A stretch of DNA of 64,000 nt. Source: Actinomycetota bacterium (GTDB taxonomy: Bacteria > Actinomycetota > Acidimicrobiia > Acidimicrobiales > Microtrichaceae). Below, in pieces: positions 9,279 to 26,011 of this stretch (within the stretch, counting starts at the first letter, position 1; each line of letters opens with the position of its first letter). The DNA lies in contig VGBZ01000003.1 in NCBI GenBank assembly GCA_016870275.1, forward strand, positions 1 to 64,000, written 5' to 3'. The notes below the pieces were generated by a model, which saw nothing but the letters and a program-made list of their open reading frames with translations, did not search any database and was not told where the DNA came from. Position numbers and translations under genes: made by a program.

Positions 9279-9283
9279 GACGG

Positions 9284-10102
9284 TCAGCCGGCGGCGGAGC
9301 GGAGATGGACGACGTCGCCGACCCCGACCGTCCGTCGCACACGTTGATCGTCCTCGATCACGAGTCCGCCACCCGAGTCGATGTCGACTGCTGCACCTAT
9401 CAGCTCGGCACCTGTGAGTTCGACGCGAACCCGACGACCCAGCGTCGCTGAGCGAGCCCGATAGGCGCCGAGGAACTCATCGGTGGGCACCGCCAGCACC
9501 TCGATGAGCGGGAGCCAACGCTGGTCCAGACCGACCAGGAGATCGAGGAGCACGACCTCGCGATCTACCGCACCGCCGAGCACCTCGTCGAGCGAGGTGG
9601 CCGTGGCTGTGAGGTCAGGAGGAATCGCATGCCAGTTGAGGTTGATGCCGACGCCGACCACGGCGAACGGCCCTGCGCCCTCGACGTCGACCATCTCGGT
9701 CAGGATCCCGCCGACCTTGAGGTCCGCACCGTCTGCATCCGGGTTCGGGACCACGAGGTCGTTGGGCCACTTCAGTCGCGTGGTGGCGCACGCATCGACT
9801 GCAGCAACACCGACAGCGGCGGGGACGAGCGTCCATCGATCCTCGGCGATGCCGGCGAGTCCGACGGCGATGCTGACCAACAGCGATGATCCCGGCTCGT
9901 CCTCCCAGATCCGATCCAGCCGACCGCGACCCGCCGTCTGGTGATCGGCGACCAGCACCAGCGGCCGGGCTGGGGCGTGTTCCGGCAGCCGCTCAGCTAG
10001 GAGCCGGGGCACGTCGGCGTTGGTCGATCCGGTCACAGTGACGTGCCGGAGGTCGGCGAACCGGGTGCCAGTGAGTGCTGCTTTGGCGCGATCGAGGTTC
10101 AT
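9284..10102 (-). CDS. birA: biotin--[carboxyl carrier protein] ligase
   Basis: 272 residues, a BirA of the short type without an N-terminal DNA-binding domain. Ligase motifs: VTGSTN near residue 25, HQTAGRGRLDRIW (biotinyl-5'-AMP loop), SSLLVSIAV, LKWPNDLVV, KVGGILTEM, and VVGVGINLNW. It attaches biotin to the lysine of BCCP domains. The gene is divergent from the biotin carboxylase/BCCP gene that encodes its probable substrate, with only 18 bases between start codons. TAGTTT on the minus strand stands exactly six bases before the ATG, so translation is likely leaderless. Confidence 0.94.
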   Translation of the reverse strand: MNLDRAKAALTGTRFADLRHVTVTGSTNADVPRLLAERLPEHAPARPLVLVADHQTAGRGRLDRIWEDEPGSSLLVSIAVGLAGIAEDRWTLVPAAVGVAAVDACATTRLKWPNDLVVPNPDADGADLKVGGILTEMVDVEGAGPFAVVGVGINLNWHAIPPDLTATATSLDEVLGGAVDREVVLLDLLVGLDQRWLPLIEVLAVPTDEFLGAYRARSATLGRRVRVELTGAELIGAAVDIDSGGGLVIEDDQRVRRTVGVGDVVHLRSAAG

Positions 10103-10108
10103 CCGGCG

Positions 10109-10118
10109 AAACTAGTTT
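10109..10118. promoter_or_regulatory. palindromic AAACTAGTTT between birA and the biotin carboxylase gene
   Basis: A perfect 10-bp palindrome in the 18-base divergent gap. On the minus strand it supplies TAGTTT followed by six bases and the birA ATG. On the plus strand TAGTTT is only two bases from the GTG of the carboxylase gene, too close for the same geometry. It may serve as a -10 for birA alone or be part of an operator that links the two genes. Confidence 0.45.
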
Positions 10119-10120
10119 CT

Positions 10121-11899
10121 GTGTTCACCAAGGTACTGATCGCAAACCGTGGAGAGATCGCCGTCCGGGTCATCCGGGCGTGCCGGGAGCTGGGGATCTC
10201 CACCGTGGCCGTTTACTCCGACCTCGACCGGGACGCCCTGCACGTACGACTCGCCGACGAGGCCTATGCGCTTGGCGGTCAGACGGCAGCCGAGAGCTAC
10301 ATCGACCCCAAGAAGCTGCTCGACGTGATCACCCGCTCCGGAGCCCAGGCCGTCCACCCCGGCTACGGCTTCTTCTCGGAGAACTCCGACTTCGCCAAGG
10401 CGATCACCGACCTGGGGGTGGCGTTCATCGGTCCGGGGCCGGCCGCGATCGACGTGATGGGCGACAAGATCTCTGCGCGCCACGCGGCGGAACGGGTGGG
10501 CGTCTCCGGTGTACCGGGGACCACCGACATCCTCACCGACTCCCAGCAGGTCGTCGACTTCGGCAACGAGTTCGGGTTCCCCGTGGCGATCAAGGCCGCG
10601 TACGGCGGTGGTGGTCGCGGCATGAAGGTGGTCAACGCAGCCGATGAGGCCGCCGCGGCGCTCGAGTCCGCCCAGCGCGAAGCGGTTGCGTACTTCGGTC
10701 GTGACGAGTGCTACATGGAGCGGTATCTCACCAAGCCGCGCCACGTCGAGGTGCAGCTCATCGCCGACACCCACGGCAGCTGCGTCTACCTGGGGACGCG
10801 CGACTGCTCCGCGCAGCGACGTCACCAGAAGCTGATCGAGGAGGCGCCTGCGCCGGGGATCCCCAACGAGATCCTCACCGCCATGGGCGAGGCCGCCGTG
10901 AAGGTCGCGCAGGGTTGCGACTACGTCAACGCCGGAACCGTCGAGTTCCTCTACTCCGACGGCGAGTTCTTCTACCTGGAGATGAACACCCGCCTGCAGG
11001 TGGAGCACCCCGTCACCGAGCTGGTGACCGGGATGGACCTGGTGGAGCTCCAGCTCCGCGTCGCCGCCGGCGAGCCACTCCCGTTCAGCCAGGCCGACGT
11101 GACCATCACCGGCCACGCCATCGAGTGTCGGATCAACGCCGAGGACCCGGCCGGTGGGCAGTTCCTGCCATCCCCCGGTCCGATCACCGCGCTCACGGTA
11201 CCGAGCGGATTCGGGACCCGCTGGGACGGCGGCTACGAAGCGGGCGACGAGATCAGCCAGTACTACGACAACCTGGTCGGGAAGCTGTGCGTGTGGGGGC
11301 GCGACCGTGACGTAGCGGTCGCCCGCATGGTCCGGGCGCTCGAGGAGATGCGCGTCGAGGGCATCGCGACCGTCATCGACGCCGATCTGGCGATCCTGCG
11401 CCACCCCGACTTCCAGGCGATCGACCACTCGACCAAGTGGGTCGAGGAGGTCCTCGACCTGAGCGGCGTGGGTGGCGCCGCCACGACGGGCGAGGACACA
11501 GACGCCGAGCCCAAGGTCGAGCGCAACCTCGATGTGGAGGTCAACGGCAGGCGCTTCGCCGTCAAGGTCTTCGTCCCGGAGTCACAGGTGGGGGCCGCCG
11601 CGCCGGCGCCCGGCGCCAAGCCCCGACCCAAGCGTGGCCGGTCGAGCGGCGCAGCGGCGAGCGCCGCGGGCACCGGTCAGATCACCGTCCCGATGCAGGG
11701 CACGATCGTCAAGGTGGTCGTCAAACCCGGCGACGAGGTCGCCGTGGGTGATCCGCTCGTCGTGCTCGAGGCCATGAAGATGGAGAACAACGTCGCCGCC
11801 GACGTGGCCGGCACCGTGGCCGAGGTCCGCGTGTCGACCGGTGACTCCGTGGCCTCCGGTGACATCGTCGTGATGATCACGCCAGCCTCTGGGAGCTAG
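10121..11899 (+). CDS. acetyl-/propionyl-CoA carboxylase alpha subunit (biotin carboxylase fused to BCCP)
   Basis: 592 residues from GTG 10121 (VFTKVLIANRGEIAVRVIRA), matching the length of mycobacterial AccA3-type subunits. The first 450 residues or so are a complete ATP-grasp biotin carboxylase: HPGYGFFSENSDFA, AAYGGGGRGMKVV, ERYLTKPRHVEVQL, RDCSAQRRHQKLIEEAPAP, and LEMNTRLQVEHPVTE. An Ala/Pro/Lys/Arg linker follows. The C-terminal 75 residues are a biotinyl domain with EAMKMEN; the biotinylated lysine is about Lys553. It carboxylates biotin with bicarbonate and ATP for acyl-CoA carboxylases; the beta subunit is not in this window. The annotated frame extends upstream of 10121, but that stretch overlaps birA and is not family-like. 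Confidence 0.95.
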   Translation: MFTKVLIANRGEIAVRVIRACRELGISTVAVYSDLDRDALHVRLADEAYALGGQTAAESYIDPKKLLDVITRSGAQAVHPGYGFFSENSDFAKAITDLGVAFIGPGPAAIDVMGDKISARHAAERVGVSGVPGTTDILTDSQQVVDFGNEFGFPVAIKAAYGGGGRGMKVVNAADEAAAALESAQREAVAYFGRDECYMERYLTKPRHVEVQLIADTHGSCVYLGTRDCSAQRRHQKLIEEAPAPGIPNEILTAMGEAAVKVAQGCDYVNAGTVEFLYSDGEFFYLEMNTRLQVEHPVTELVTGMDLVELQLRVAAGEPLPFSQADVTITGHAIECRINAEDPAGGQFLPSPGPITALTVPSGFGTRWDGGYEAGDEISQYYDNLVGKLCVWGRDRDVAVARMVRALEEMRVEGIATVIDADLAILRHPDFQAIDHSTKWVEEVLDLSGVGGAATTGEDTDAEPKVERNLDVEVNGRRFAVKVFVPESQVGAAAPAPGAKPRPKRGRSSGAAASAAGTGQITVPMQGTIVKVVVKPGDEVAVGDPLVVLEAMKMENNVAADVAGTVAEVRVSTGDSVASGDIVVMITPASGS

Positions 11900-11946
11900 T
11901 TCTTCTGCCGCAGCGCGCCCGACGCAGTCGAGTTGGACTCTGCGCC

Positions 11947-12591
11947 TCAGGCCGGCGTGAGCAGCATCAGGCAGTGCAGCGGACCACCGATGACCACGTT
12001 GAGCGGATTCGGGTAGACCCTGACCGAAGAGTGGAAGTCCTCGATCCTCAGGTCCGCCTGGCGAAACGCCCGCTCCCACTCCGAACGACTCCAGTAGTCG
12101 TAGGGCAGCGAGACCCCGTTGTGCCGGTTCCCGACGTAGTCCATGACACGCAGCCGCCACTCATCGATCCGACGTTCGTTGATGTGGTCCTTTATCACCA
12201 CGCTGGCGGACGCCACCCGGCCGGCGTCAGTCAAGAGCTCCACCTGATTGGTCGAGTGGTGCAGCACGTCGCTGAAAATCACCGCGTCGAATGAATTCGC
12301 GTCGAACGGGAGACGGTGCCCGTTGAAGAGCTCCACCGGGATGAACGCCTCCTTCCGTGCCAGGACGTCGACCCCCCTGAACTCGAGCTCCGGTCGACGG
12401 CGCACCACCTCGGAGGCCAGGAGACCGTCACCACTACCGACGTCGAGCACGGTCCTGGTCCCGACTGGGATGATGCCGGAGAAGGCCTCCGCTAGGTGAT
12501 CGATCCGTCGTCCGTGGATCAACGAGAAGTGGAGAAGATGCATCGCCTCGAGCAGCCGGACCCTGACCCCGGGCGGAGCGGAATCAGCCAC
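11947..12591 (-). CDS. class I SAM-dependent methyltransferase
   Basis: 214 residues. Motif I is TVLDVGSGDGLLASEVV (about residues 45-61). FRGVDVL is motif II, and FDAVIFSDVLHHS covers motifs III/IV. The C-terminus has YDYWSRSEWERAF, which I have seen in small methyltransferases next to polyprenyl-glycosyltransferases. It overlaps the GT2 gene by 8 nt, so the two are probably co-translated and may act on the same lipid-linked intermediate. The substrate is unknown. GTG start at 12591. Confidence 0.85.
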   Translation of the reverse strand: MADSAPPGVRVRLLEAMHLLHFSLIHGRRIDHLAEAFSGIIPVGTRTVLDVGSGDGLLASEVVRRRPELEFRGVDVLARKEAFIPVELFNGHRLPFDANSFDAVIFSDVLHHSTNQVELLTDAGRVASASVVIKDHINERRIDEWRLRVMDYVGNRHNGVSLPYDYWSRSEWERAFRQADLRIEDFHSSVRVYPNPLNVVIGGPLHCLMLLTPA

Positions 12592-13825
12592 CGACGTCGT
12601 CCAGTTCAGGATCCTGAGACCCTGCCGGCGCCGTCGGTCGATGTCCCCCGTCGCCGACGGACATCGGGAGCACCGCAGGGGCCTGGGGTGCGGTCTGGAT
12701 CTCCATGACGGCCTTCAGCATCCCGGAGAAGATCGTCTGCATGCCGAGCATGCCGAGCAGCACCGCGGGAACGGTCAACCGGAGGGAATTCCTGGGGTCG
12801 AGCGGGCTGAAGTTCCAGTCGACGGTGGCGAACACGAGCAGCGCGAGGCCGACCAACAACGACAGCGCACCGGCGAGCAGCACCCGCTCGAGCGGGAGCC
12901 GTCGTGAGAGCCGTTCGATGCGGGCGTCTGCCGGCAGCAGGCCCTCCCGGATCGCAACTGTCTTGGACAGGACGGCGAACCACACCGCCTGGTAGCCGAC
13001 CACCGCCATCGCCGCGCACACCACCAGCGTGTTGACGTCGAGTGTCGCCGGACCGACCCGCACCGAGGTGATGCTCACCAGTAGGCCGCCGAGCAACCCG
13101 GCCGCCATGAGCGCCAGACCGGGGTTCAGGAAGAGCCACCGCGGGCTGCAGAGGAGGAGGAATCGGAGGTGGCGCCATCCGTCCCGCCAACTCCTGAGGT
13201 GCGGCGGTCGGGACCGTCCATCCGGGTGCAGGCGTGTCGGAACCTCGACGATGTCCTGCCCCCTGAGCGTCGCCTTGACGACCATTTCACTGGCGAACTC
13301 CATGCCGGTCGACTGGAGGTCGAGTCGAAGGACTGAGTCACGGCGGAAGCCCCGGAGTCCACAGTGGAAGTCCCCGATCGGGCTGCCGAAGAACAGCCGG
13401 CCCAGGAAGCTGAGGACCGGGTTGCCGAGGTAGCGGTGCAGGGGCGGCATGGCGCCCGGCTCGATACCTCCGCGGAACCGGTTGCCCATCACGAGATCGG
13501 CACCGCCGCGGAGCGCCTCGACGAAGGGGTCGATCGAGGAGAAGTCGTAGCTGCCGTCAGCGTCTCCCATGATGATGAACCGGCCACGCGACTCGGCGAT
13601 GCCTCCCCGGAGGGCTGCCCCGTACCCGCGCTCGCAAATCGTGACGACACGGGCTCCACCGGAAGCTGCGAGCTTCTGCGAGCCGTCGGCGCTCCCGTTG
13701 TCCGCAACCACGACCTCGCCGACGATCTCTCGATCGGCCAGGTAACGCGTGGCCTCCTCCACGCAGCTGGGCACGGTCTCCGCCTCATCGAGGCACGGCA
13801 TCAAAATGGTCAGTTCCTTCTCCAC
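12584..13825 (-). CDS. glycosyltransferase family 2, polyprenyl-phosphate glycosyltransferase type, with C-terminal membrane domain
   Basis: 413 residues. The catalytic GT-A domain covers about residues 1-230: ELTILMPCLDEAETV, VVADNGSADGSQ, GDADGSYDF (DxD-type), and GLRGFRRDSVLRL. Four predicted membrane helices follow between about 240 and 390. This is the DPM1/GtrB arrangement, which loads a sugar onto polyprenyl phosphate so that GT-C enzymes can use it outside the membrane; the gene directly upstream encodes such a GT-C enzyme. GTG start at 13825. A TAGGTT overlapping the stop codon of the upstream gene lies seven bases before it, so an internal leaderless promoter is possible. Confidence 0.9.
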   Translation of the reverse strand: MEKELTILMPCLDEAETVPSCVEEATRYLADREIVGEVVVADNGSADGSQKLAASGGARVVTICERGYGAALRGGIAESRGRFIIMGDADGSYDFSSIDPFVEALRGGADLVMGNRFRGGIEPGAMPPLHRYLGNPVLSFLGRLFFGSPIGDFHCGLRGFRRDSVLRLDLQSTGMEFASEMVVKATLRGQDIVEVPTRLHPDGRSRPPHLRSWRDGWRHLRFLLLCSPRWLFLNPGLALMAAGLLGGLLVSITSVRVGPATLDVNTLVVCAAMAVVGYQAVWFAVLSKTVAIREGLLPADARIERLSRRLPLERVLLAGALSLLVGLALLVFATVDWNFSPLDPRNSLRLTVPAVLLGMLGMQTIFSGMLKAVMEIQTAPQAPAVLPMSVGDGGHRPTAPAGSQDPELDDVGG

Positions 13826-13835
13826 CCGGGCGAAC

Positions 13836-15641
13836 CTACTCGCTCCTCAACTCACCCGGGGGCACCTCGGGAGCAGCCGGAACGGGACGGAACGACTGGA
13901 GGAGGAGCACCGCTCCTCCCACGCCGGAGCCGAGTAGCGGCACCAACAGGACGAACACGACGGGCGAGGAACCGGTCGGGCCCACCCACAGCCACCAGAA
14001 GTCGATCCTCGGCGCCGATGCAAAATAGCCGTAGTGCTTCACAGGATCCGAGGTGTAGGTGCCGCGGGTCCGGTCCCCGGGACGCCTCTCGTCGAGGACA
14101 TCCCGCACCGCCTCCGGGAGCAATTCGAGGTGACCCAGCTGGGGCTGCCACTGGATCTCGTGACGGGTCACGGGTGAGACGCGTCCACCACCGACCGTCT
14201 CGCCGACTCTGACCAAGAACATATGGAAACTCAGCAACACACCGAGGAGCGCCGGGACGAGGAGCCCGAAAACCGAGAGCCCGACGAGGCCACGGGTCAG
14301 CACTCGTGACCCGGCGGCTCCCAGCCCTGCCAGCACGGCGAGCGCGGGCAAGATGATATTGCCGTAGCGACCACCCCACGAGGCGTCGCCACCCCACCAT
14401 GGCGTCCGGGCGAAGAGCGCCAAGTTGGCCAGGATTACAGCAGACAGCAACAGGGACTCAGCCAGCCAGTGCCGCGCCGAACGATAGATGCCGAGTACGG
14501 CGACCACGCCGAGCGGTGCGAACAGGAGGAGGGACTTCCCGGGGCTGACGAGTTGGTTCACGAAGCCCTCAACGAACGGGTAGTCCAACGGTACCGAGTC
14601 GCCATAGCCGCTCGCCAACGGGTCGCCGAAGCGCCACCACGTCACGAGGCCGAGCACCAGAATCATCGGGGCGACCCAGCAGGCGGCCACGGCTGCGGCC
14701 GCAGGAATTCGCCTCACTCCCTCCCGCTGGACAACGGCCCAAATCAGAAACATGCCGACGAGCGGCACGAAGACCAACGCTGAGACCCTGAACATCACCG
14801 CCAACACGGCGACGGAAGCTGAAGCACCCAAGAGCACGAGTCGGCCGGTGGCGCGGTAGCGGAACGCCAGGTAGACCGAGGCGATAACACACAGTGACGT
14901 CCCCGGCTCCGAGGCAAAGGTCTTGGCGTGCGGCCAGGCATATGTGCACAACGCATAGGAGAGCGCGACGAGGACGCTCAGACGCCAACGCCGCGTCAAC
15001 TCGAACACCGAGAGCAGGACCACCACGGCAATCGCGGGGGTGACGAGCGAGTTCGCCATGAAGGTGGTCGTCCTGACCACGAAGTCTCGCTGTTCCGGCG
15101 GAGCCAGTCGGGCAAGGCCCGAACCGAGAACGTACAACGGGACGGCCAAAACAGACTGGGCGATCCCGTACTGCCCCGCGTAGGAACCGTCCGGACGCTC
15201 CCGATACACAAGCGGATGGTTGGGGTCAAGGGTCCTCAGTGCCGGCTCGCCGTGAAGGAGGCTACGGGTCGTCTGGAACATCACCTCCTCGTCGATGTTG
15301 TACACGTGACCTCCCGAGGTGATGCCGTAGACCCCGACGAGCAGGAGAAAGAGGCCCAGCACACCGAGCCTGCGCCCCCGAGTGAGCCCACCCGGGAGGA
15401 GCCCGGTTCGACCGGCTCGGCGCTGCCGACGGACTCGCCCGGGCGGACCGACAACGAGGTAGCGAGACCCAGAGCCGCCCCGCTCGACGGTCTCCCCTGC
15501 AGGAACCGTCCGATCGAGATCCCACGACGTGCGCGGGTCTGACTCCGAGGTCGATACCCCTGCGGAACGGCTTGGTTCCGTTCGGCTCCCTCTGGGGAAG
15601 CCCTGAACACCGGCAGATGACTTGCGGCGTCTTCCATCCAC
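13836..15641 (-). CDS. GT-C fold membrane glycosyltransferase (ArnT/GT39-like)
   Basis: About 601 residues with a soluble head of roughly 90 residues and 10 or more hydrophobic segments from GLFLLLVGVYGITSG onwards. After the first helix, YNIDEEVMFQTTRSLL sits where GT-C enzymes carry the acidic catalytic motif in the first periplasmic loop. Such enzymes take sugar from polyprenyl phosphate, consistent with the adjacent GT2 gene. The frame stays open to 15842, but I place the start at GTG 15641 because TACATT stands exactly six bases upstream; the extra upstream part is arginine-rich shadow. The start is still uncertain, since the head is poorly conserved in appearance. A decayed copy of the first third of this gene lies at 18257-18600. 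Confidence 0.8.
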   Translation of the reverse strand: MDGRRRKSSAGVQGFPRGSRTEPSRSAGVSTSESDPRTSWDLDRTVPAGETVERGGSGSRYLVVGPPGRVRRQRRAGRTGLLPGGLTRGRRLGVLGLFLLLVGVYGITSGGHVYNIDEEVMFQTTRSLLHGEPALRTLDPNHPLVYRERPDGSYAGQYGIAQSVLAVPLYVLGSGLARLAPPEQRDFVVRTTTFMANSLVTPAIAVVVLLSVFELTRRWRLSVLVALSYALCTYAWPHAKTFASEPGTSLCVIASVYLAFRYRATGRLVLLGASASVAVLAVMFRVSALVFVPLVGMFLIWAVVQREGVRRIPAAAAVAACWVAPMILVLGLVTWWRFGDPLASGYGDSVPLDYPFVEGFVNQLVSPGKSLLLFAPLGVVAVLGIYRSARHWLAESLLLSAVILANLALFARTPWWGGDASWGGRYGNIILPALAVLAGLGAAGSRVLTRGLVGLSVFGLLVPALLGVLLSFHMFLVRVGETVGGGRVSPVTRHEIQWQPQLGHLELLPEAVRDVLDERRPGDRTRGTYTSDPVKHYGYFASAPRIDFWWLWVGPTGSSPVVFVLLVPLLGSGVGGAVLLLQSFRPVPAAPEVPPGELRSE

Positions 15642-15647
15642 GAGGGG

Positions 15648-15653
15648 AATGTA
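15648..15653 (-). promoter_or_regulatory. leaderless-type -10 box before the GT-C gene
   Basis: TACATT, then six bases (cccctc), then GTG at 15641. This is the same geometry as at eight other starts in the window. No convincing -35. Confidence 0.6.
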
Positions 15654-16105
15654 GCCGTGCGCGACGAGTCCGATCGCTCCAGTCGTCGTCAGCCGACACC
15701 GGACCCGGTCGGCGGTACGCCGCAACGACTTGGTCGACCATCGACGCAATTGCGTTCTGAGCCTGCCCCGCCGCAGACACATCGTTCCCTGAGCGATGAG
15801 CGCCACTCTGACACCCCGTGCGTCCGGTCTCGGCCGCCGCATGCACCGGCTGCCCGCCGACTCGAGCGATGTGATTCAGAGCCAACTCGACTCATCGTCG
15901 CAGCAGCGTGATCTGGTGTTGATCCTCGGCGCCTACGCAAAGCCGGGACTCGCAATCCTCTTCGTGGCCATATCAGCGACGTGATTCACGCGCCCGCCCT
16001 CCATCGGGAACGGCTTCACCGGGTGGGGTTCCTGCTAGGACCCCAAGGCCCATCTTGCTGGTCAACTGGGCGAGGGCGTTGGACGGGGAATCCTCGGAAT
16101 AGGTA
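15654..16105. other. region without a recognisable gene
   Basis: Open frames exist on both strands, but none has a family signature. A minus-strand stretch at about 16010-16115 reads like real protein (TYSEDSPSNALAQLTSKMG, then LGVLAGTPPG) and may be another gene fragment; I could not assign it. The region borders the pseudogene cluster and is visibly less GC-extreme than its neighbours, as expected for DNA no longer under coding selection. Confidence 0.5.
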
Positions 16106-16500
16106 ATGACTGCTCCAGTTGGTGCAACCGCCGTGATCGCTGTGTACCGCGTCGGTCGCGCAGTGTTCGGCCGAGAGATCACACCAACGGCTGCAGTTGC
16201 ATTCCGTTTCCTGCATGACGCTCGCATGCAAAGCATGGCGGTCAGTGATGGGCTCATTGGGGGCCTCGGAGTCGCACTCTGGGACCGGACTACGGAACTG
16301 CTCACCGCCGCGCTCGTAGTCGTCGACCGACTGCCGATGACGGGTCAAACACCACTGATCTCCGCAACGGGCGTGTTGATGGAGGGTGCTGGCGCTCGGG
16401 ACCTTCACCTCGATCGTCACCTGGCAGAAAGCGCCGCTCACCCCGCGATCAGGCTCCCGGAGGGGGATCGAGGGGTTGCACCGAGATGGGCATGGCAAGC
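16106..16500 (+). pseudogene. remnant A of a PIG-V-like mannosyltransferase gene (internal deletion, frameshift)
   Basis: The reading starts with AVIAVYRVGRAVFGREITPT, which matches AAVYLAVRAVLGREIATAT of remnant B. It then jumps to sequence matching the 3' end of B: TPLISATGVLMEG against MPLVAASGVMMGA. After a frameshift it ends FTSIVTWQKAPLTP against FSSIVTWQTAPLAP. Relative to B about 470 bp are missing near 16290. The offset between A and B is about 1180 bp on the 5' side and 1650 bp on the 3' side. It cannot make a functional protein. Confidence 0.8.
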
Positions 16501-17307
16501 CGCGCCGGACGGCTGACGCAGTCGGCCGTCCGGCGGATCATCAGGGCGAAGACCAGGTTCGGACGCTCGAATTCCCAGGAGATGCGTCGGTCGGACACCT
16601 CCACCGGGTCGTCCAAGCTGTTCATCACCTGGTCGCCGGGGGCCATGATGTCGACGTGGAGGCCCGGGAGGTCCGACAGGGCACCTTCGATGAGTTCGAG
16701 CGTGAGCCGCCAACGTCCGGGGTGCAGCATCATGGGGAGGCCGGTGACCGTCAGCTGTTTGCGATCCGGATCCAGATCCAGTCCGTCGCTGTCGGGGCCG
16801 CTCCACATCCCGCGGCAGACTCGGGTGTTCCAGTGTGCGTCGAAGAGCTGCTGGACCCGCGCCGCCAGCTCACGCTCTCGTGGCTCCCGGTCGGTTCGGA
16901 CGGCGTCCATCCACCACACGAACGAGTCGTCGGGACGTTCGCCTCCCTCGACGATGCGGCGAACGACCAGTGCAGGGTCGGAGACTCCCTCCTCTAGCTC
17001 CATGACGCGGTCGTCGAAGCGGCACCGCCACACACCGCGCACCCGTTCGACGTCGAAACCAGCGAGATCAACCAGTTCACCCATCTCCGGAGCTGAGATC
17101 TCGATGGTGTGGCCCCCGTGGGTCCACGTGAGGTGTTCGGTCACCAATCAGTTCGGACTGTCCATCACCAGGAGACCGTCCACATGGAGCACGCGGTGGG
17201 CCTGCAACAGAAACCCGGTGAGCTCGTGGGCCCACAGATGCTCGGTGGTCTGACCTGCAAACACGAGGTCAACCGAATCATCCTCGACACCCTCGAACCG
17301 GTCCGCC
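16449..17307 (-). pseudogene. methyltransferase pseudogene (5'-truncated, premature stop)
   Basis: Reading left from about 17307, the frame begins inside a class I methyltransferase: DDSVDLVFAGQTTEHLW, then HRVLHVDGLLVMDSPN. A TGA at 17150-17148 then interrupts it, and the same frame continues LVTEHLTWTHGGHTIEIS to the end at 16449. DSPN-R-LVTEHL is the usual continuation in this family, so the stop looks like a CGA-to-TGA change. The SAM-binding motif I is absent because the first 90 or so codons are missing. The truncation point coincides with the beginning of PIG-V remnant B. The 232-codon part after the stop is intact but lacks the cofactor site. Confidence 0.82.
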
Positions 17308-18101
17308 GTGGCCGCCGTGTACCTCGCCGTGCGCGCAGTGCTCGGCCGAGAGATCGCAACAGCGACCTCTGTTCTGGTCTGCTTCCTGCCCACCTCGTAC
17401 ACGCTCAGCATGGTGTACACGGGAGGCATCTTCATCGCCAGTGCCGGGTTCTGCCTGTACTTCCTCGTCCGCAAGAAGTGGGAGTTAGCCGGTCTGGCTG
17501 CGCTGCTTGCGGGTACGACGAGATCAACGGCCGTGGTACTCATCGCGTGCTGCTTCTTCGAAGGAGTCAGGGTTGCCCTCAGGGATTGGTCGGCGCGGCC
17601 ACTGACCGCCCCGCTGATCGCCCCGCTCGGTCTGCTCGGGGTCATGGCTCCCGGGTGGGCTCGGATCGGGGAGCCCTTGGCTTTCGTCAAGGCCCAAGAG
17701 GCATAGAACAACGAGTTCGACTGGTTCCGACCGATCTACCGAGGAGTGACGAAGGTCTTCACAGAACGCGCATCCTGGCAGGGCGCCCAGGCTGTACCTG
17801 CGACGCTTGCGGTCTCAGCGGTGCTCGTCGGCCTCGTCGTGATGTGGCGGACGAGAGGCATACCCGCTGTCTGGCGGGTCTACTCGATTGGAATCCTGAT
17901 TGTCGCACTCAGTCCGTTCTGGCTGTCGAGCATTCCCGCTACCTCCTGCCGTCATTTCCGTTAGCTGCCGCAGTCGTAAGCCGGTTGCCAGCGGCGGCTC
18001 GGATGCCGCTTGTCGCCGCCTCCGGCGTAATGATGGGAGCACTGGCACTCCGCGCCTTCAGTTCGATCGTGACCTGGCAGACAGCGCCGCTCGCCCCGTG
18101 A
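17308..18101 (+). pseudogene. remnant B of a PIG-V-like mannosyltransferase gene (nonsense and frameshift)
   Basis: One frame runs VYLAVRAVLGREIATA, then LPTSYTLSMVYTGGIFI, then WELAGLAALLAGTTRSTAVV. This is the membrane topology and 'sY-gg-F--a--al--l--a--tR-ta' pattern of PIG-V-type mannosyltransferases. A TAG at 17704-17706 follows KAQEA, probably a former tryptophan codon. The frame resumes NNEFDWFRPIYRGV and continues to a TAG at 17962. About 30 bases before that the true frame shifts by one and reads YLLPSFPLAAAVV to the natural stop at 18101. The 5' third of the gene is absent. Confidence 0.82.
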
Positions 18102-18103
18102 TC

Positions 18104-18262
18104 AGGCCTCCGAGGAAGAGCGAGGGGCTACACCCGGTTTGAATGGGAAGCTTCGCCAGGCGGACCATCGTGGCGATATCCATGTCGGGCCGTGCCAATT
18201 CGGCGGTGACCCTCTGGTCAGGTACGCGAACTAGTTGGCTCAAGCCGGTCGTGACGTGGTCG
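18104..18262 (-). pseudogene. 3' stub of a second copy of the methyltransferase gene
   Basis: Plus-strand sequence from 18101 onward aligns with 16450 onward (shared stretches such as gatcaggc, cgaggggt/cgaggggc, cgccggacgg/cgccaggcgg), with a 22-nt gap, to about 18250. Translated on the minus strand, PDQRVTAELARPD parallels SDRRISWEFERPN of the longer copy. The rest of the gene is missing and the sequence passes into a GT-C gene remnant. Confidence 0.5.
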
Positions 18263-18600
18263 TCTGGCCCACCGAATCCTCGTGGTTCGGCGGGGCAGGC
18301 GGGCCGGGCACGAGACGGACTCGTTCGCCAGGACCGCCACCCGGGGCCGGCCGAATCCACTTACCGTGGAAGAGGAACAGCCCGAGGTCTTCCGCTGCAC
18401 AACCGGATGCTCAGGATTCTCGCTCCGCAGTGCTGGCCCGCAGCGGGAGGAACCACTGTCGTCCAGCTCGCGAGAGGTTCGCCGGTCTTGCTTGTTCGTG
18501 GACGCTCCCGAGACGATGTCGGAGATCCCGACGAGCTGGAGGAAAAGGCCCCGCGCATCGCGTCGGCACGCTCAAGTGGCCTCGTCCAGGAGAAGGCGGG
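18257..18600 (-). pseudogene. remnant of the 5' part of a GT-C gene, paralogous to 13836-15641
   Basis: Minus-strand sequence aligns collinearly with about 15070-15390. GLFLQLVGISDIVSG parallels GLFLLLVGVYGITSG. GPALRSENPEHPVVQRK parallels EPALRTLDPNHPLVYRE. The DNA encoding RDFVVRTT of the intact gene (15055-15110) is recognisable around 18257-18295. Several frameshifts interrupt it and everything after the first 100 or so membrane-domain codons is gone. Confidence 0.7.
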
Positions 18601-18668
18601 ACTGTCCTGCACTGCGCCATGCTCGGACTCACTCGGGCGACCCAACGTCGACGATTTCGACTGTCATG

Positions 18669-20015
18669 TCAGCGTCCGAGGAGCGATTGCGTCCTATGTC
18701 GTATCCGTCCGAGGATCCGACGGATACGACCAGTCACGGCACGAATTCCTGACACACCGGGGGCAGGCGCCGCAGGAGGGTCAGGCATTGAAGACACCGG
18801 CGCTGACGCCTCGGCGTAGACCGAACCCGCGATCGGTCGCAGCTCCTCCGATGGGGTCTTCTCGTCAATCTCTGCGAGCACCTCAAGCGCTAGCTGGAGT
18901 CGCTCCCTCCCGATCTTCTCCTCTGCACTGACGCACCTCCCCATCCACTCGAATGTGTCGTGCAACCCGGTGAATGTTCCCGACTCCCGCAGGTCCCAGT
19001 CGCGCAGCAGATACTCGAGCCCAAAGATCGTGACGTTGAAGTAGTGCGAGGGCACTGCGTGCAGAGGCTGCATGAAGGCGACCTCGCAGTAGAGGACCCC
19101 TCCCGGCTTCAAGACCCGTCGCATCTCGTCGACCGCCTGCTGGGGGTCGGGCACGTGCTCCAGAACCGCTTGGCTCAGCACGAGGTCGAGGGATCCGCTT
19201 CGGAAGGGAAGCCGGAGGCCGTCCGCAAACAAGTCGGGGAGCTCGAACCTCATGTACTCGAGGTTGAACACCCGTGGATCCCCGAAACGCCGGTCACCAC
19301 CGCCCAGATCGACGGCGATCCCGCCCTCTGGGAGCAGGTCCACGAGCTCCTCGAACCGGGGAGGGAACCCGTTCCCGCGATTGACCGGGTCCACCTGTGG
19401 CAGCGGCGCGTCGACCGGTCGGCGCAGTACGTCGAACCGGTTGAGAACGATCTGGTCGCCCCCCGCTGCGGGGTGCCGTTCACCGGTCGGGACGACCTCC
19501 AGTCGGTGGCCGCCGTTGGGAAAACCGACCAGGTCCACCACGACGAACTCGGTCTCGACCCGGAACAGGTCCACCTCCTGGACCAACTCATCATCGACCC
19601 ACAACTCCGCACGTCCGCTCCAGCTGTGAGCGAAGAACGTGATCGAGATGCCGACGCCGCGGAACGGCAGCACGGCCCGGTGAGACCCACCCGGCCCCGT
19701 TCGCAGTCCCTCCCATCCCGACTCCCAGCGACCAACGAGTTCCAGGCCGTCGTCGTCGATGCCGACCGGGACCCGGACCCGACCAGCCGGAACGCGGTGG
19801 GCGCGCGCCCGCTCGACATCTGGGGGGCGGAAACTGACGGCGTAGCTCTCCACCACGCCAACAGCGCCGTGCAAGGGACAGCTGAGGTCGGCGTCGACAA
19901 CCAGACCCTGATGGCGAGCGGCCGCAGCGAGCGTGAGCGGTCCGCCACAGACCGGACATGCCAGCGCACCGAGCAACAGGCTCTGCCGCTCCTGTGCCAC
20001 CCGTGGATCGGTCAC
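18669..20015 (-). CDS. SAM-dependent methyltransferase with N-terminal Trm112-like zinc-ribbon region
   Basis: 448 residues. The N-terminus has CPVCGGPL, then about 25 residues later CPLHG, like the small Trm112-type domain fused to glycan methyltransferases. Residues about 70-200 form a beta-rich domain I do not recognise. The methyltransferase core starts near 210: IAVDLGGGDRRFGD, FADGLRLPFRSGSLDLVLSQ, AVLEHVPDPQQAV, RRVLKPGGVLYCEV, which is the Methyltransf_11 pattern. The tail is basic and repetitive (RIRRILGRIRHR). The GTG start overlaps the stop of the large glycosyltransferase by 4 nt, so it belongs to the Wzm/Wzt unit and probably methylates the exported glycan or its precursor. Confidence 0.85.
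   Translation of the reverse strand: MTDPRVAQERQSLLLGALACPVCGGPLTLAAAARHQGLVVDADLSCPLHGAVGVVESYAVSFRPPDVERARAHRVPAGRVRVPVGIDDDGLELVGRWESGWEGLRTGPGGSHRAVLPFRGVGISITFFAHSWSGRAELWVDDELVQEVDLFRVETEFVVVDLVGFPNGGHRLEVVPTGERHPAAGGDQIVLNRFDVLRRPVDAPLPQVDPVNRGNGFPPRFEELVDLLPEGGIAVDLGGGDRRFGDPRVFNLEYMRFELPDLFADGLRLPFRSGSLDLVLSQAVLEHVPDPQQAVDEMRRVLKPGGVLYCEVAFMQPLHAVPSHYFNVTIFGLEYLLRDWDLRESGTFTGLHDTFEWMGRCVSAEEKIGRERLQLALEVLAEIDEKTPSEELRPIAGSVYAEASAPVSSMPDPPAAPAPGVSGIRAVTGRIRRILGRIRHRTQSLLGR
18698..18730. repeat. perfect 12-bp inverted repeat
   Basis: gtcgtatccgtc, a 9-nt loop, gacggatacgac. It lies inside the 3' end of the methyltransferase gene, where it encodes RIRRILGRIR, about 30 nt before the stop. 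No T-run follows on either strand, so it does not look like a standard intrinsic terminator. Confidence 0.8.
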
Positions 20016-23000
20016 CGATCGTTCCCCGGATTCACTGCGGTGAGTTCCATCTCGTGCGTCCCCACGTTGCGCCGGCCGACCTCGACCACCTCGACGTGCA
20101 CGAACCCGACACGTTCCAGCATTTCAGTGAGCGACGGGGCGTCGTACATGGCGAAGTGGTCGTCGCCGGAGTAGTCCTGAAGACCGAAGGTGGCCGTACG
20201 AAACTGCTCAAAGGAGATCCGACCGGACGCGACCAACTGGATCAACGCCGAGGCATCCGGACAGACGATACGGAGCGAGCCACCTGGCCGCAGGAGACTC
20301 CGCCAGTAGGGCAGCACCACGGTCTCCAGTTCGTGTAGCCGGAAGTGCTCGATCAGGTGCTCCGAGCAGACCTCGTCCGCAGATCCGGGGGGCACCGGCA
20401 ACCGGCGAACATCGCCGACCACGTCGACGCCCTCGAGGGGCCGGGCGTCCACATTGACGTAGCCGGCCTTCGGCTTCTCACCACACCCAAGGTTCAACCG
20501 GACCAGTCCGTTCTCCCGCTTCACCAGCTCGTCCCAACCACTGGACTCAAGGATCTTGGGCTCGGGAATTGCGAGTGACTCGTGGTCGACGGGCAGCCGC
20601 TCACGGAGATCGAGCGCCATGCCCTCCTGTTTCCGTTGAAGCACGTCGATCCATGCGATGAGCTGGTCAAAACCTTGGTGCTGCTGCGAGGTGAGCTCGG
20701 ACTGCTGCGAGGTGAGCTCGGACTGCTGCGAGGTGAGCTCGGACAGCCGGGCAGCCACGAGACGGTCGACCTCCAACGACCGGTCCCAGGCATCAGGACT
20801 CACCTCGGTACCGGTAGGCCTGTCGTCCGACGCGGCCAACCGGGTCAGCGACTCACTGAGCTCGCTGAGCCGCTGTTCCACCTGCGCCACCTCAGACTGA
20901 AGTCCGCCCAGCTGGCCCGTCATCCGGGGAACGCTGCGAACCGCTGATCGCAGTTCCGACAGACGCTGGCGAAGCTGGCGGGCCGTTGCGCCCACGGTGC
21001 GGACACCGCCATCACCTTGCCCCGCTGAGCCCGGGGTCGGTGGAGGCCCCACCACCTCGCTCAGCCAACCGGTCGGCACCTGCTTGGCACGAGCCTCGTC
21101 GCTCACGACCAGCGAGTGCAGCAACTCTGCACGTGACACTCCAGCATGCAGGGCCTCGACCACCGACCGGAGCTCGTCGGAGCTCGGCGTCCGGAACAGG
21201 ACCGTTTCGTAGAGGCGGGTCACGACGTGCGAATCGTCCGGGTCTGCGATGAACCACCGGACAGCATCGGCGAGTGCTTGGCCCCACAGCGGCACAACCT
21301 CCAGACGCCAGCCCGCACCGAGCCTCGATGGCGCCCACGGGTCCGCAGCGAGATCGCCGGCGACGACGAGTCGGGATCCCCCCCGGGCCAAGAAGGCCAT
21401 CTGGACGTCCAGCTCCCACTGCTCGGGTTCCCGGTCGCGCAGCAAACGGTAGAGCCCATCGACGAAGCGGTGGTCGTCAGAGACCAAGAGGCGGACCAAC
21501 TCGCCGGCCACGTTGTGGGGGTAGTTGGACGGATCGATGAGTGCGGCTGCAACGGAGGGTGCATCGTCGGCATCCAGGCCGGCGTCGATCAGCACCGGTG
21601 CGAGCCTTGACGGGGAGAGCTCCTCACCTGTCGACCCCGACGCCGCAAACGACACGTATGCCTGTTCCGTGCGGTGAATTGCAGCAGAGAGTTCCCAGAA
21701 CTCCTCGAAGAGCTGGCGACCACGGCGTCCCATCGACTCGCGCAGTCCCGGGTCGCGGAGGACCCGGTCGAGGGCCTCGGCCAGGTCAGCTACCTCCTCG
21801 GGCGGCACCAAGATCCCGTTCCCGTCCACAAGGTCGGTCATCCCGCCGGCTGCGCTCGCGACAACGGGCTTGCCGTGGGCCATCCCTTCCAGCACGACGA
21901 ACCCGAATGACTCATACCTCGATGGAACGCACAGCACGTCGCAAGCGGCGTACCTTCGAGCCAGCTCGTCGTCGGCTACCTCGCCGACGAAGTGGACGCG
22001 GTTGAGAAACTCGGCTCCACTGTGCTCCTGTTGGAAGCGCTCGCGATAAGTCGTGCCGATCTCAGTGTTCGTGGTGTCGCGACCAACCAGGGTGAGGTGG
22101 AGGTCGGGCAGGCGGTCCAGGAGCGCAGGCGCCGCGTCGAGCAGGACGTCGACCCCCTTGCGCCGCTCCAATCGGCCGACGAAGAGCAACTCCGTACCGT
22201 CGCCCGCCTCCCGGAGGGGCGATGCATTCGGCGCTGCATCGGTGAGGCCGTAGTGGAGGAGCTCGATCAGACCGTCGGTGAGCCCGGTCGTCTCCTCGAC
22301 GGTTGCTCGGCTGTTGGCCTGGAGGATTGGGCTCAGACGGAGTGAGTCGAGCTCGAGGCGGATTAGTGCCTGAATGTGCGGATTGCCTCCCCACGACGGA
22401 AGGAGTTCGGCCACCTTCCGAATGGTGGTGTGCAGCGAGGTGACGGTCGGGAATCGGCCATCCAGTGAGAGAAGCAGGTTCTCGCAGTTCCAGATGGGGG
22501 CGGACACGAGATCGATCGGCCGCCGTTCGTGGAGACGAACCACCTCGGCGTAGAGGGCGGCACAGTGGAGGAGGTTGTGACGGAGCACCGACGACTCGAG
22601 ACCCGGGATGTACGGGTCACGGACCAGGACCCGGTGGACCCACACACCGCGCTCGACGTCGATCCTGGCGTGGTCCTCGGTGCGGGTCACCACGTGGACC
22701 TCGTGCCCCAGCCCCGCAAGACCAACGGCGGTCTCCTCGGTGAACCGCCCGATCCCTCCCACATCTGGCGCGTACTCGCCGGAGACGAAGCAGAACCGTT
22801 GAGGCGGTGCGTGACGACGGAGGGTTGGGAACCTCAGGAACTCCGAGCTCGACGGCGGCCCGATCTCGACCGACTGTCGGACAGCGCGCAGTCCGAGCTC
22901 CAGCCCAGCGGCCACACCCTCGTGCACCCGGTCATGAAATCGCTCGATCTCAACGTCGTTGGCACCGTAATCCTGAAGCTCACGTGACCCGTTGACGAAC

Positions 23001-23779
23001 ACCCCTCGAACCCACTCGGACAGGTCTCCGAGAACGATGCTCCGTTCTCTGCCCCGCGAGTTGGCCAACGCAAAGTAGTACCGGTTCTTGACTGCCGGGT
23101 ACGGGTTCGTCCAGACCGTCCTCGTGGTCCGGAGGTGGCTCGGCAGGAACCGGTGGTGCACGGCCGCTCCGTCGAGCGGCACGAGGCGGTGGCCGGCATC
23201 GACCAGACGCATGCACACCTCCGTCTCGTCGAGGTAGTACTCGATGGTCTCGTCGAATCCACCGATCTCGACGAGTGCCGATCTCCGGAAGCTGCAGTTG
23301 GTCCCCTGCAGGTACAGGAACGGGTCAGCCCCGGGGTACAAGTACTCATCAAAGGGCGGGAAGATGTCGAACCTCGGGTGGCCACTCCGACTGCAGACCG
23401 AGTACCGGTACTGCAGCTCCATGCCCGTGTGGTCGAACACCAGCCCGCCGACACCAGCCACAGACGGATCGTCGTAAGCGGCGACGAGACTTTCGATCCA
23501 GTCTGGCTCTGGAATGGCGTCGTCGTCGATGAAGGCCACGACCTCACCGGCAGCAGCCATGATCCCGAGGTTTCGAGACTTCCCGAGGTGGACCGCAGCG
23601 AGGTCGACGACGCGGACCCGGCCCGACCACTCATTGAGGAGCTCGGCGGTCCCGTCGGCCGAGGGGCCGTTCACCACGACCACCTCGAAGTCCTCGTAGG
23701 TCTGGCGTGTGAGCCCGTCCAGCGTCGCCGGGAGGCTGGACGCCCGGTTGTAGGTGTTGATGACGACCGAACACGTCAT
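20012..23779 (-). CDS. multidomain glycan synthase: GT2 - GT4 - two DUF4214-like units - coiled coil - methyltransferase
   Basis: 1255 residues. Domains in order: GT2 at about 1-300 (CSVVINTYNRASSLPATL, FIDDDAIPEPDW near residue 83); GT4 at about 328-710 (CFVSGEYAPDVGGIGRFTEE, LLFVGRLERRKGVDVLL, SRYESFGFVVLEGM with E-x7-E); two DUF4214-like repeats at about 766-896 (FVDGLYRLLRDREP, then VVTRLYETVLFRTP); a coiled coil at about 925-1060 including three SELTSQQ heptads at 1013-1033; and a class I methyltransferase at about 1092-1255 (VRLNLGCGEKPKAGYVNVD, EHLIEHF). I chose ATG 23779 because GGGAAG stands six bases upstream; a GTG at 23818 is the alternative. It follows wzt by 95 nt in the same direction. 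It probably polymerises and terminates the glycan exported by Wzm/Wzt. Confidence 0.88.
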   Translation of the reverse strand: MTCSVVINTYNRASSLPATLDGLTRQTYEDFEVVVVNGPSADGTAELLNEWSGRVRVVDLAAVHLGKSRNLGIMAAAGEVVAFIDDDAIPEPDWIESLVAAYDDPSVAGVGGLVFDHTGMELQYRYSVCSRSGHPRFDIFPPFDEYLYPGADPFLYLQGTNCSFRRSALVEIGGFDETIEYYLDETEVCMRLVDAGHRLVPLDGAAVHHRFLPSHLRTTRTVWTNPYPAVKNRYYFALANSRGRERSIVLGDLSEWVRGVFVNGSRELQDYGANDVEIERFHDRVHEGVAAGLELGLRAVRQSVEIGPPSSSEFLRFPTLRRHAPPQRFCFVSGEYAPDVGGIGRFTEETAVGLAGLGHEVHVVTRTEDHARIDVERGVWVHRVLVRDPYIPGLESSVLRHNLLHCAALYAEVVRLHERRPIDLVSAPIWNCENLLLSLDGRFPTVTSLHTTIRKVAELLPSWGGNPHIQALIRLELDSLRLSPILQANSRATVEETTGLTDGLIELLHYGLTDAAPNASPLREAGDGTELLFVGRLERRKGVDVLLDAAPALLDRLPDLHLTLVGRDTTNTEIGTTYRERFQQEHSGAEFLNRVHFVGEVADDELARRYAACDVLCVPSRYESFGFVVLEGMAHGKPVVASAAGGMTDLVDGNGILVPPEEVADLAEALDRVLRDPGLRESMGRRGRQLFEEFWELSAAIHRTEQAYVSFAASGSTGEELSPSRLAPVLIDAGLDADDAPSVAAALIDPSNYPHNVAGELVRLLVSDDHRFVDGLYRLLRDREPEQWELDVQMAFLARGGSRLVVAGDLAADPWAPSRLGAGWRLEVVPLWGQALADAVRWFIADPDDSHVVTRLYETVLFRTPSSDELRSVVEALHAGVSRAELLHSLVVSDEARAKQVPTGWLSEVVGPPPTPGSAGQGDGGVRTVGATARQLRQRLSELRSAVRSVPRMTGQLGGLQSEVAQVEQRLSELSESLTRLAASDDRPTGTEVSPDAWDRSLEVDRLVAARLSELTSQQSELTSQQSELTSQQHQGFDQLIAWIDVLQRKQEGMALDLRERLPVDHESLAIPEPKILESSGWDELVKRENGLVRLNLGCGEKPKAGYVNVDARPLEGVDVVGDVRRLPVPPGSADEVCSEHLIEHFRLHELETVVLPYWRSLLRPGGSLRIVCPDASALIQLVASGRISFEQFRTATFGLQDYSGDDHFAMYDAPSLTEMLERVGFVHVEVVEVGRRNVGTHEMELTAVNPGNDR
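20681..20743 (-). repeat. three 21-bp direct repeats encoding the heptad SELTSQQ
   Basis: Three tandem copies, effectively identical, of a 21-bp unit within the coiled-coil part of the large glycosyltransferase. Seven codons equal one heptad, so gain or loss of a unit keeps both the reading frame and the coiled-coil register. Confidence 0.97.
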
Positions 23780-23874
23780 CGCACGCTTCCCTGCCTCAGC
23801 CTGAACCACGAAACTCACCTTCCGGAGACCCTCCGCTTAGACGCACCATGACCCCAGCACGTTCACGTCGGCGG

Positions 23875-25122
23875 TCAACCTGCATTGACCACCGAGTCCT
23901 GCTCGCTCAACACACGCCAGACACCCCGGAGGTCCGCCAGACCGGAACCTGGCTGGGCAGCACCTTCACGCACCACGAGCGGGACTCCGTCCCACCGGTC
24001 GAAGAGGTGCTGGACGAATCGGTCATTGACCGCCACGGTGACCTGGTAATGGCCCGGATAAAGGAACAAGGGGTCGAAACGACACACTGCGACGCCGTGA
24101 CTCTTCACCGAACCGGTTTTCAGTCCCTTGATCTGAGTGTTGGTCCCGTCAACCCACACGCCGTTCTCGGAGAAGAAACCGAATCCGAAGACTGGGTCCG
24201 ACACCGCCCGAACCACCTCGTAGTGAAGGTGGAGTTCGAACGGCTCCCCGTAGATCCCGTGCTCGACCTCCCGACCCGCCCGGTCGTGGAACGTGACTCC
24301 GGTGATCACGATGTCGTCGTCACGGCTCACTGATCGGAACCTGTTCGACTCCACCGGACCCACGGCCTCAGCTTCCTCCCGCTCCGAATCGTCCCGGTTC
24401 ACCTTCTCGAGATACGCCGCAGCAACTTCGGGGCCGTTCCCACACTTGACGAGTCGGCCGTGATCGAGCCAGGCGGCTCCATCGCACATCGTCCTGACGG
24501 TCTCGATCCCGTGGGTCACGACGACGATCGTCACCCCGTTCCGTCGCAGGTTGTAGAGATGGTCGTAGCAGCGGTTCTGGAACTCCTGGTCACCGACGGC
24601 GATCACCTCATCGATGATGAGGATCTCGGGGTCAACGTGGACGGCCACCGAGAATCCGAGCCGCACGTACATGCCCGAGGAGTAGATCTTCACCGGGGAG
24701 TCGATGAAGTCCTCGACGCCGGCGAACTCGACAATCTCGTCGAAGAGCCTGTCGATCTGACGCTTGGACATGCCCAGAATCGTTCCGTTCATGTACACGT
24801 TCTCGCGCCCGGTCAGATCCGGGTGGAAGCCTGCGCCGAGCTCCAGCAGCGTGGAGATACGACCCTGCACCGACACCGACCCCTCGGTGGGTCGGTAGAT
24901 TCCGGCGATGCAACGGAGGAGCGTCGACTTGCCGGAGCCGTTGTGACCGATCAGCGCGTACATCGAGCCCTCGGGGATCTCGAGCGAGACGTCCCGCAGC
25001 GCCCAGAACTCATCTATCGCGACATTGCGGTCGCGCCGGGTGATCAACTCCTTGACCGAGTGGGCCCGGTCCGTCTGGAGCCGGAATCGTTTGGACACGC
25101 TGTCGGCGATGATCTTGCTCAC
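23875..25122 (-). CDS. wzt: polysaccharide ABC transporter ATP-binding protein with C-terminal cargo-type domain
   Basis: 415 residues. The ATPase half is complete: Walker A GHNGSGKST at residues 59-67, signature YSSGMYVRLGF, and Walker B EILIIDEVIAVGD. It resembles the TagH/Wzt subfamily. Residues about 260-400 form an extra beta-rich domain (ITGVTFHDRAGREVEHGIY, PVFGFGFFSENGVWVDGTN) as in Wzt proteins whose C-terminal domain recognises the modified end of the glycan. It powers export of a lipid-linked polysaccharide through the permease encoded 2 nt upstream. The C-terminal domain suggests that export depends on a defined non-reducing-end structure, which fits the methyltransferases that follow. 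Confidence 0.93.
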   Translation of the reverse strand: MSKIIADSVSKRFRLQTDRAHSVKELITRRDRNVAIDEFWALRDVSLEIPEGSMYALIGHNGSGKSTLLRCIAGIYRPTEGSVSVQGRISTLLELGAGFHPDLTGRENVYMNGTILGMSKRQIDRLFDEIVEFAGVEDFIDSPVKIYSSGMYVRLGFSVAVHVDPEILIIDEVIAVGDQEFQNRCYDHLYNLRRNGVTIVVVTHGIETVRTMCDGAAWLDHGRLVKCGNGPEVAAAYLEKVNRDDSEREEAEAVGPVESNRFRSVSRDDDIVITGVTFHDRAGREVEHGIYGEPFELHLHYEVVRAVSDPVFGFGFFSENGVWVDGTNTQIKGLKTGSVKSHGVAVCRFDPLFLYPGHYQVTVAVNDRFVQHLFDRWDGVPLVVREGAAQPGSGLADLRGVWRVLSEQDSVVNAG

Positions 25123-25124
25123 GA

Positions 25125-25958
25125 TCAGAGCTCCTCAATGACGCGTGGAGCGTAGCGACCGAACGCCCACCAGCCGACGAGCAGGCTGACTGTGGCAGAG
25201 CCACCCATCATCAGCCACTCGTTGACAGTCGGCAGGTCGAGTTCGTAGACAGTCGCCCGCATCGCGCCCACGTAGCTAGTGAGGGGATTGAACTCCAGCA
25301 CCCGTTGGGCCAGCTCACCGATCTGGTCCAGGCGGTAGACGATCGGCGTGGCGTAGAAGGCCACCTGCAGTCCAATGCCGACGAGGTAGCCGACGTCGCG
25401 GAACCTGACGTTCCCAAGCCCGAGGACGAGGCCGATCCCGAAGGCGAAGCACGCGCCCAGGAGCATGACCGGGATCGAGACCAGGAAGGTCCAGGACACA
25501 TTTCCGAACGCAATCATGAACCCCCAGAGGATGGTGAGCTCCAAGGCCCCTTGGATCAGGACCGTGGTGAGACCGGCCACCATGGGCGCCTCGGGCGGGA
25601 AGTACGTTCGGGAAAGCAGATCGCCCGCTCCAAGGAAGGATCCGATCGAGTTGTTGACCACCCCGCTCGCCAGGTTCCACAGCACCAGCCCGCAGAAGAG
25701 GTAGATGGCGAAACTCGTGAGTCGTCCGTTGCCTGCCACGGGCGCGGTGCCCTTGAGGAACACGCCAAACACCAGCGTGTAGATCCCCAAGGTGACCGCC
25801 GGGTTGATCAGCGACCACGTCCAGCCGAGGAAGCTCTTCTTGTAGCGGGCCTTGAGGTCCCGTTGCGCCAGATTGGCGATCAGGGTCCGATACGACCAGA
25901 CCTCGGCGGGGGTGGACAAGCGCGATGCCTTTGGAAAGCTTGCGGGGAACTCGAGCAT
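25125..25958 (-). CDS. wzm: polysaccharide ABC transporter permease
   Basis: 277 residues of the ABC-2 type with six hydrophobic segments. LIANLAQRDLKARYKKSFLG is the N-terminal amphipathic helix typical of Wzm/TagG permeases. NPAVTLGIYTLVFGVF is helix 1. YFPPEAPMVAGLTTVL and FREDVGYL-like NVRFRDVGYLVGIGLQ are the conserved coupling and re-entrant regions. It forms the membrane channel of the glycan exporter. First gene of the wzm-wzt-synthase-methyltransferase unit, with only 2 nt to wzt. The ATG at 25958 has no strong ribosome-binding site. Confidence 0.93.
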   Translation of the reverse strand: MLEFPASFPKASRLSTPAEVWSYRTLIANLAQRDLKARYKKSFLGWTWSLINPAVTLGIYTLVFGVFLKGTAPVAGNGRLTSFAIYLFCGLVLWNLASGVVNNSIGSFLGAGDLLSRTYFPPEAPMVAGLTTVLIQGALELTILWGFMIAFGNVSWTFLVSIPVMLLGACFAFGIGLVLGLGNVRFRDVGYLVGIGLQVAFYATPIVYRLDQIGELAQRVLEFNPLTSYVGAMRATVYELDLPTVNEWLMMGGSATVSLLVGWWAFGRYAPRVIEEL

Positions 25959-26011
25959 GCTAGCAGTCCGGGTCCGAACCGACCGTCAGTGGCCCTCGAC
26001 GCGGGCACTCC

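Follow-up and report, generated by a model that had tools for sequence, protein, structure and literature searches.

Tandem duplications that arise by illegitimate, short-homology recombination in bacteria include those of one report that used 9-bp microhomologies at their borders (PMC11111574), and a second report gives 0-5 bp of shared identity at the joins of Acinetobacter amplifications (PMC9997567). The locus that we analysed, in a window of 64,000 nucleotides (the whole stretch of DNA under study), is like these duplications in that a word of a few nucleotides links the end of one unit with the beginning of the following one, but it is unlike them in that the event is old, the copies differ by about 29%, none of them is functional and the breakpoint has to be read from relatives (PMC11111574, PMC9997567). 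In its setting the locus is like glycan loci of the teichoic-acid or galactan type with an ABC exporter of the Wzm/Wzt kind: Wzt-like (23875-25122) and Wzm-like (25125-25958) genes, for each of which an exporter model is the best NCBIfam match, below the named cut-off, are surrounded by glycosyltransferases and methyltransferases, and it is the accC-proximal end of this locus that we studied. We conclude that this end is probably the non-functional remnant of a tandemly duplicated convergent unit, truncated at a junction at 17303-17310 and then decayed. The event is of a known kind, an ordinary gene graveyard that reflects gene turnover in a fast-changing glycan locus.

Gapped self-blastn of positions 13500-19500 gave three off-diagonal matches, pairing 17303-17413 with 16128-16238 (73% identity, E 4e-14), 17969-18163 with 16315-16512 (71%, E 2e-27) and 18256-18651 with 15064-15457 (64%, E 3e-32); all remaining matches had E values of at least 8e-4. 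None of 500 dinucleotide shuffles reached the observed score for any diagonal (z = 23, 47 and 44, respectively), and the three diagonals on which a sequence-only reading of this DNA had staked its case are thus present. Ungapped repeats are spaced 1175 apart on the first diagonal and 1653 on the second, close to the offsets of about 1180 and 1650 bp proposed in that reading, and the part between the two blocks has 478 bp less in copy A than in copy B (456 nt when measured against the relative G001), in agreement with its predicted loss of about 470 bp. Because the second diagonal continues past the end of the glycosyltransferase and takes in the 3' end of the methyltransferase, the duplicated segment was the unit and not one gene only. 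The outcome is two collinear head-to-tail copies with the second methyltransferase reduced to its end, as expected of a pseudogenised tandem duplication, and the glycosyltransferase copies A and B differ by about 34% when compared by codon position.

An intact relative of the glycosyltransferase is encoded by G001, a genome of the same genus, as a single plus-strand gene of 404 codons that is flanked by accC and by the homologue of the window gene that starts at 18669 (stretch L053, 1697-2911). Among 119 genomes, its own included, the glycosyltransferase query had matches in 42, with only G001 close (73%; next best 36-37%), and no second copy was found elsewhere in its own genome. Using tblastn with the 404-aa G001 protein, DNA alignment and the positions of stops, we assigned glycosyltransferase pseudogene copy A to 15796-16448 on the plus strand. 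The protein matches lie at 15835-16026, 16043-16255, 16310-16381 and 16389-16445, the first piece beginning at residue 14, and at the DNA level the ATG at 15796 lines up with the start codon of the G001 gene, which moves the start 310 bp upstream of position 16106, where copy A had been taken to begin. Relative to G001, copy A is missing about 80 nt in one gap and 456 nt in an internal deletion, its reading is broken by in-frame stops and a frameshift, and the stop codon is lost. Copy B (17303-18101, plus strand), delimited by tblastn, alignment and translation, is 72% identical to G001 residues 140-404; it lacks the first approximately 139 codons, is interrupted by a TAG at 17704-17706 and a frameshift near 17937, and retains its stop codon. 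Measured against an intact relative, the window copies are thus disabled in the ways that mark a pseudogenised duplication, by stops, frameshifts and truncation. The G001 protein just passes the cut-off of PMT_2 (PF13231; 26.8 bits, cut-off 26.1) and fails that of PIG-V (PF04188; 18.9 bits, cut-off 22.4), two families of the GT-C superfamily. We therefore refer to it as a predicted GT-C-type glycosyltransferase and drop the earlier "PIG-V" label, a family name that a sub-threshold match does not establish. The copy B fragment gave no Pfam match at E up to 1, and a search of the PDB sequence set with the glycosyltransferase gave none at E up to 1.

The minus-strand gene between the glycosyltransferase copies is predicted to encode a SAM methyltransferase, as had been proposed: its intact homologues in G020 (473 aa) and G032 (405 aa) exceed the Methyltransf_11 cut-off (PF08241; 32.4 and 28.5 bits, cut-off 21.2), whereas the window fragment, at 17.9 bits, remains under it. 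Homology to these two proteins and translation place methyltransferase copy A, which keeps the C-terminal part but has been truncated 5', at 16449-17311. It is 50-51% identical to both homologues over 282-284 aligned positions, contains one in-frame TGA in 285 codons of an otherwise open frame and is missing the N-terminal portion of its methyltransferase domain. Methyltransferase copy B is represented by its last approximately 150 nt (18102-18262, minus strand), which align with copy A at 16449-16512 and 16527-16629 and end in a 6-nt overlap (TGGTCG, 18257-18262) with the remnant of a GT-C gene. The methyltransferase query matched 21 of the 119 genomes (own included), over most of its length only in G020 and G032, and no second copy was found elsewhere in its own genome.

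Methyltransferase homology extends to about 17311 and glycosyltransferase homology begins at 17303, the overlap at 17303-17310 being the 8-nt word CCGCCGTG, which recurs in copy A at 16128-16135. When the junction is aligned with the copy A glycosyltransferase, 8 of the 40 nt to its left match, compared to 32 of the 40 nt to its right. Random position pairs in the region show overlaps of at least 8 at 0.02% and of at least 6 at 0.2%, figures that serve as guides and not as tests, since the junctions were picked by alignment and the parental methyltransferase sequence is represented only by distant relatives. Two truncations had been claimed to meet at about 17307; the meeting point is real, but it appears to be one recombination junction and not two losses. 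The word itself is found in glycosyltransferase A, and the methyltransferase side of the breakpoint is known only via relatives at 50-51% protein identity; 17303-17310 is thus a putative duplication breakpoint. That a 5'-truncated methyltransferase A abuts a 5'-truncated glycosyltransferase B, while glycosyltransferase A keeps its start codon, is the pattern predicted by tandem duplication.

In the model that we prefer, the ancestral convergent unit would have consisted of a GT-C-type membrane glycosyltransferase on the plus strand facing a SAM methyltransferase on the minus strand, with accC on one side and the 18669 gene on the other, where a glycan locus of the ABC-transporter type ends. 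A single tandem duplication via a microhomology of approximately 8 nt at 17303-17310 would have produced a full glycosyltransferase A, a 5'-cut methyltransferase A, a 5'-cut glycosyltransferase B and a full methyltransferase B. All four would then have decayed, with copy A losing its 456 nt, point stops and frameshifts building up, and methyltransferase B being trimmed until approximately 150 nt of its end were left, fused with a fragment from a second copy of the GT-C gene nearby; the neighbouring GT2, GT-C and methyltransferase genes may have rendered the old pair dispensable. Against this model stands the finding that glycosyltransferase A and methyltransferase B, which it leaves whole, are more decayed than methyltransferase A and glycosyltransferase B, the reverse of the naive expectation. 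The far better preservation of the latter two (one stop in 285 codons, and one stop plus one frameshift, respectively) would fit an older duplication of two complete units, in which decay began with glycosyltransferase A and methyltransferase B. The other two genes would have persisted as a working, divergently transcribed pair until a single deletion at a microhomology took away their 5' ends and the intervening promoter region, killing both. This sequence of events, which requires two complete units and an extra deletion, is in our judgement unlikely, and the distribution of changes over codon positions bears on it in both directions.

Private changes were counted in well-aligned blocks, at 241 of the 320 sites aligned in A, B and G001, 79 sites near gaps having been dropped. 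By codon position they amount to 12/12/11 in A, 10/6/6 in B and 6/7/24 in G001 (third-position excess by Fisher's test, p = 0.007 for B and p = 0.005 for A, each against G001). Flat changes in A and B next to biased ones in G001 indicate that the G001 gene is constrained and that both window copies look unconstrained after parting; as is typical of pseudogenes, the changes since duplication carry no codon-position bias in either copy, on small counts. The flatness of B argues against a later deletion, as does the number of third-position private changes, 24 in G001 vs 6 in B (p = 0.001), which, if rates are equal, would group A with B and date their duplication after the split from G001. The single stop in B is compatible with neutral drift, under which at most one stop has a probability of 0.25-0.40 at 0.09-0.13 changes per site. 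The differences between B and G001 (.23/.15/.49 by codon position), in contrast, have the profile of a living gene, such as the neighbouring one with.20/.15/.50, and are unlike those between A and B (.36/.31/.34), which suggests either that the unconstrained time of B was short or that the flatness of its counts (22 changes) is noise. The protein trees, which do not settle the order, also count against the preferred model: they fail to group A with B (nodes separating B from A have support 51-69, with long branches), and in the full-length tree a weak node (support 60-69) unites B with G001. In the reading that we prefer, methyltransferase A and glycosyltransferase B would have been born truncated.

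We give hardly any credence to the notion that the open pieces, a 232-codon frame of methyltransferase A (16449-17147) and a 132-codon frame of copy B (17308-17706), are still used as small proteins. The former does stay open for all of its 232 codons, and the private changes of methyltransferase A (32/33/41) show no clear reduction in third-position bias when compared with those of G020 (p = 0.51); they are less biased than those of G032 (p = 0.035), however, the N-terminal part of the domain is gone, and copy B is flat. The self-comparison, the intact relatives and the lost codon-position bias all back the original proposal of pseudogenes of a duplicated convergent pair accompanied by a GT-C fragment.

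The source-like copy of that fragment is an intact gene for a GT-C-type membrane protein of 601 aa (13836-15641, minus strand), recognised by its open frame and its GC content by codon position (.68/.52/.79, similar to its neighbours). Its protein has a weak NCBIfam match to the LA_3751/LA_3752 putative glycosyltransferases (24 bits, cut-off 200), and it has probably arrived recently, since relatives occur in only 2 of 118 other genomes, at 28-31% identity. The remnant at 18256-18651 on the minus strand (tblastn match 18646-18332), which contains frameshifts and stops, matches the part of the 1806-nt gene at nt 185-578; a remnant of the 5' third had been claimed, correctly as to its existence, and it is longer than described. 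Intact gene and remnant are about 32% different, flatly so by codon position (.32/.34/.31; 9/39, 17/38 and 10/39 in good blocks). A third-position excess, expected because the intact copy should add synonymous changes, was not seen between the two, for which alignment noise may account, the sole explanation that we can offer.

The word TGGTCG at 18257-18262 is common to methyltransferase A (16630-16635) and the GT-C gene (15065-15070). Such a shared 6-nt word at the second junction, the presence of a GT-C scrap just past the second copy and the similar divergence, flat by codon position, of GT-C vs remnant and A vs B would all suit an amplified three-gene array (GT-C, glycosyltransferase A, methyltransferase A, a lost GT-C, glycosyltransferase B, methyltransferase B, GT-C remnant) that collapsed by microhomology deletions at 17303 and 18257. 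We consider such an array quite unlikely, as it requires a third partial copy and two deletions, and the self-comparison reveals no GT-C trace between methyltransferase A and methyltransferase B; under the preferred single duplication, the scrap would stem from a second copy of the neighbouring gene. It is very improbable that either junction, 17303 or 18257, reflects unrelated pieces joined in assembly: the draft genome is split into 137 contigs, but this contig comprises 143742 bases, there is no N in 10000-25000, the copies, at about 29% difference, are too divergent for co-assembled strains, and the region is flanked on both sides by synteny with G001.

We compared the context in 11 stretches, taken from the surroundings of accC and of the exporter genes in 10 relatives, and in the stretches L072 and L073. 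The graveyard is bounded by an intact methyltransferase-domain gene (18669-20015, minus strand). In G001 its homologue comes immediately after the intact glycosyltransferase, and the order accC, glycosyltransferase, 18669 homologue occupies the same place as the window remnants, without the methyltransferase of the pair. In G020 the methyltransferase lies beside the 18669 homologue, along with two other GT-C-like genes, and in G032 it occurs in opposite orientation with a GT2 gene and another GT-C-like gene. The G032 methyltransferase (L055, 7552-8769) is inverted relative to the remaining syntenic locus. A relative of the G032 GT-C-like gene sits beside the 18669 homologue in G009 and G013, together with a GT2 gene (weak in G013). 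G005, in which accC and Wzt/Wzm are both visible, has neither gene of the pair; in G002, G004, G006 and G019 accC is visible, and the stretches compared end before Wzt/Wzm. L073 (Acidimicrobiales MAG OFTM81) carries the methyltransferase near Wzt, and neither it nor L072 has the glycosyltransferase. An intact pair at the same place in related strains had been put forward as a check; none of these stretches contains one, the glycosyltransferase standing alone in G001 and the methyltransferase in G020 and G032. No methyltransferase remnant was detected in the G001 gap at 2909-3092 (239 of 300 shuffles as good against the window copy, 52 of 300 against G020), nor a glycosyltransferase remnant beside the G020 methyltransferase (285 of 300).

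The interval from accC to Wzm/Wzt (window 11899-18669; L053, L054, L055, L064 and L065) varies in length and gene content among relatives, and the different gene sets that it carries support, in outline, the earlier suggestion that the glycan locus has seen duplications and losses repeatedly. We tentatively entertain the possibility that the accC-proximal end is a replacement slot, where an incoming set of GT2, GT-C and methyltransferase genes displaced the older pair, caught mid-removal, with one recombination event disabling two genes at once. The graveyard alters no general picture; it is a readable record of gene swapping in a surface-glycan locus, by duplication, truncation at a short shared word and drift, and it is a warning for annotation, as the mechanical open reading frames of 130-330 codons at 15.8-18.9 kb are mostly debris rather than genes. 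No tRNA was found in 9000-27000. Beyond the bounding gene lies a large multi-domain gene (20012-23818) that combines GT2, GT4, DUF4214 and methyltransferase domains, and within it three perfect 21-nt tandem units (20681-20744) encode a repeated SELTSQQ linker.
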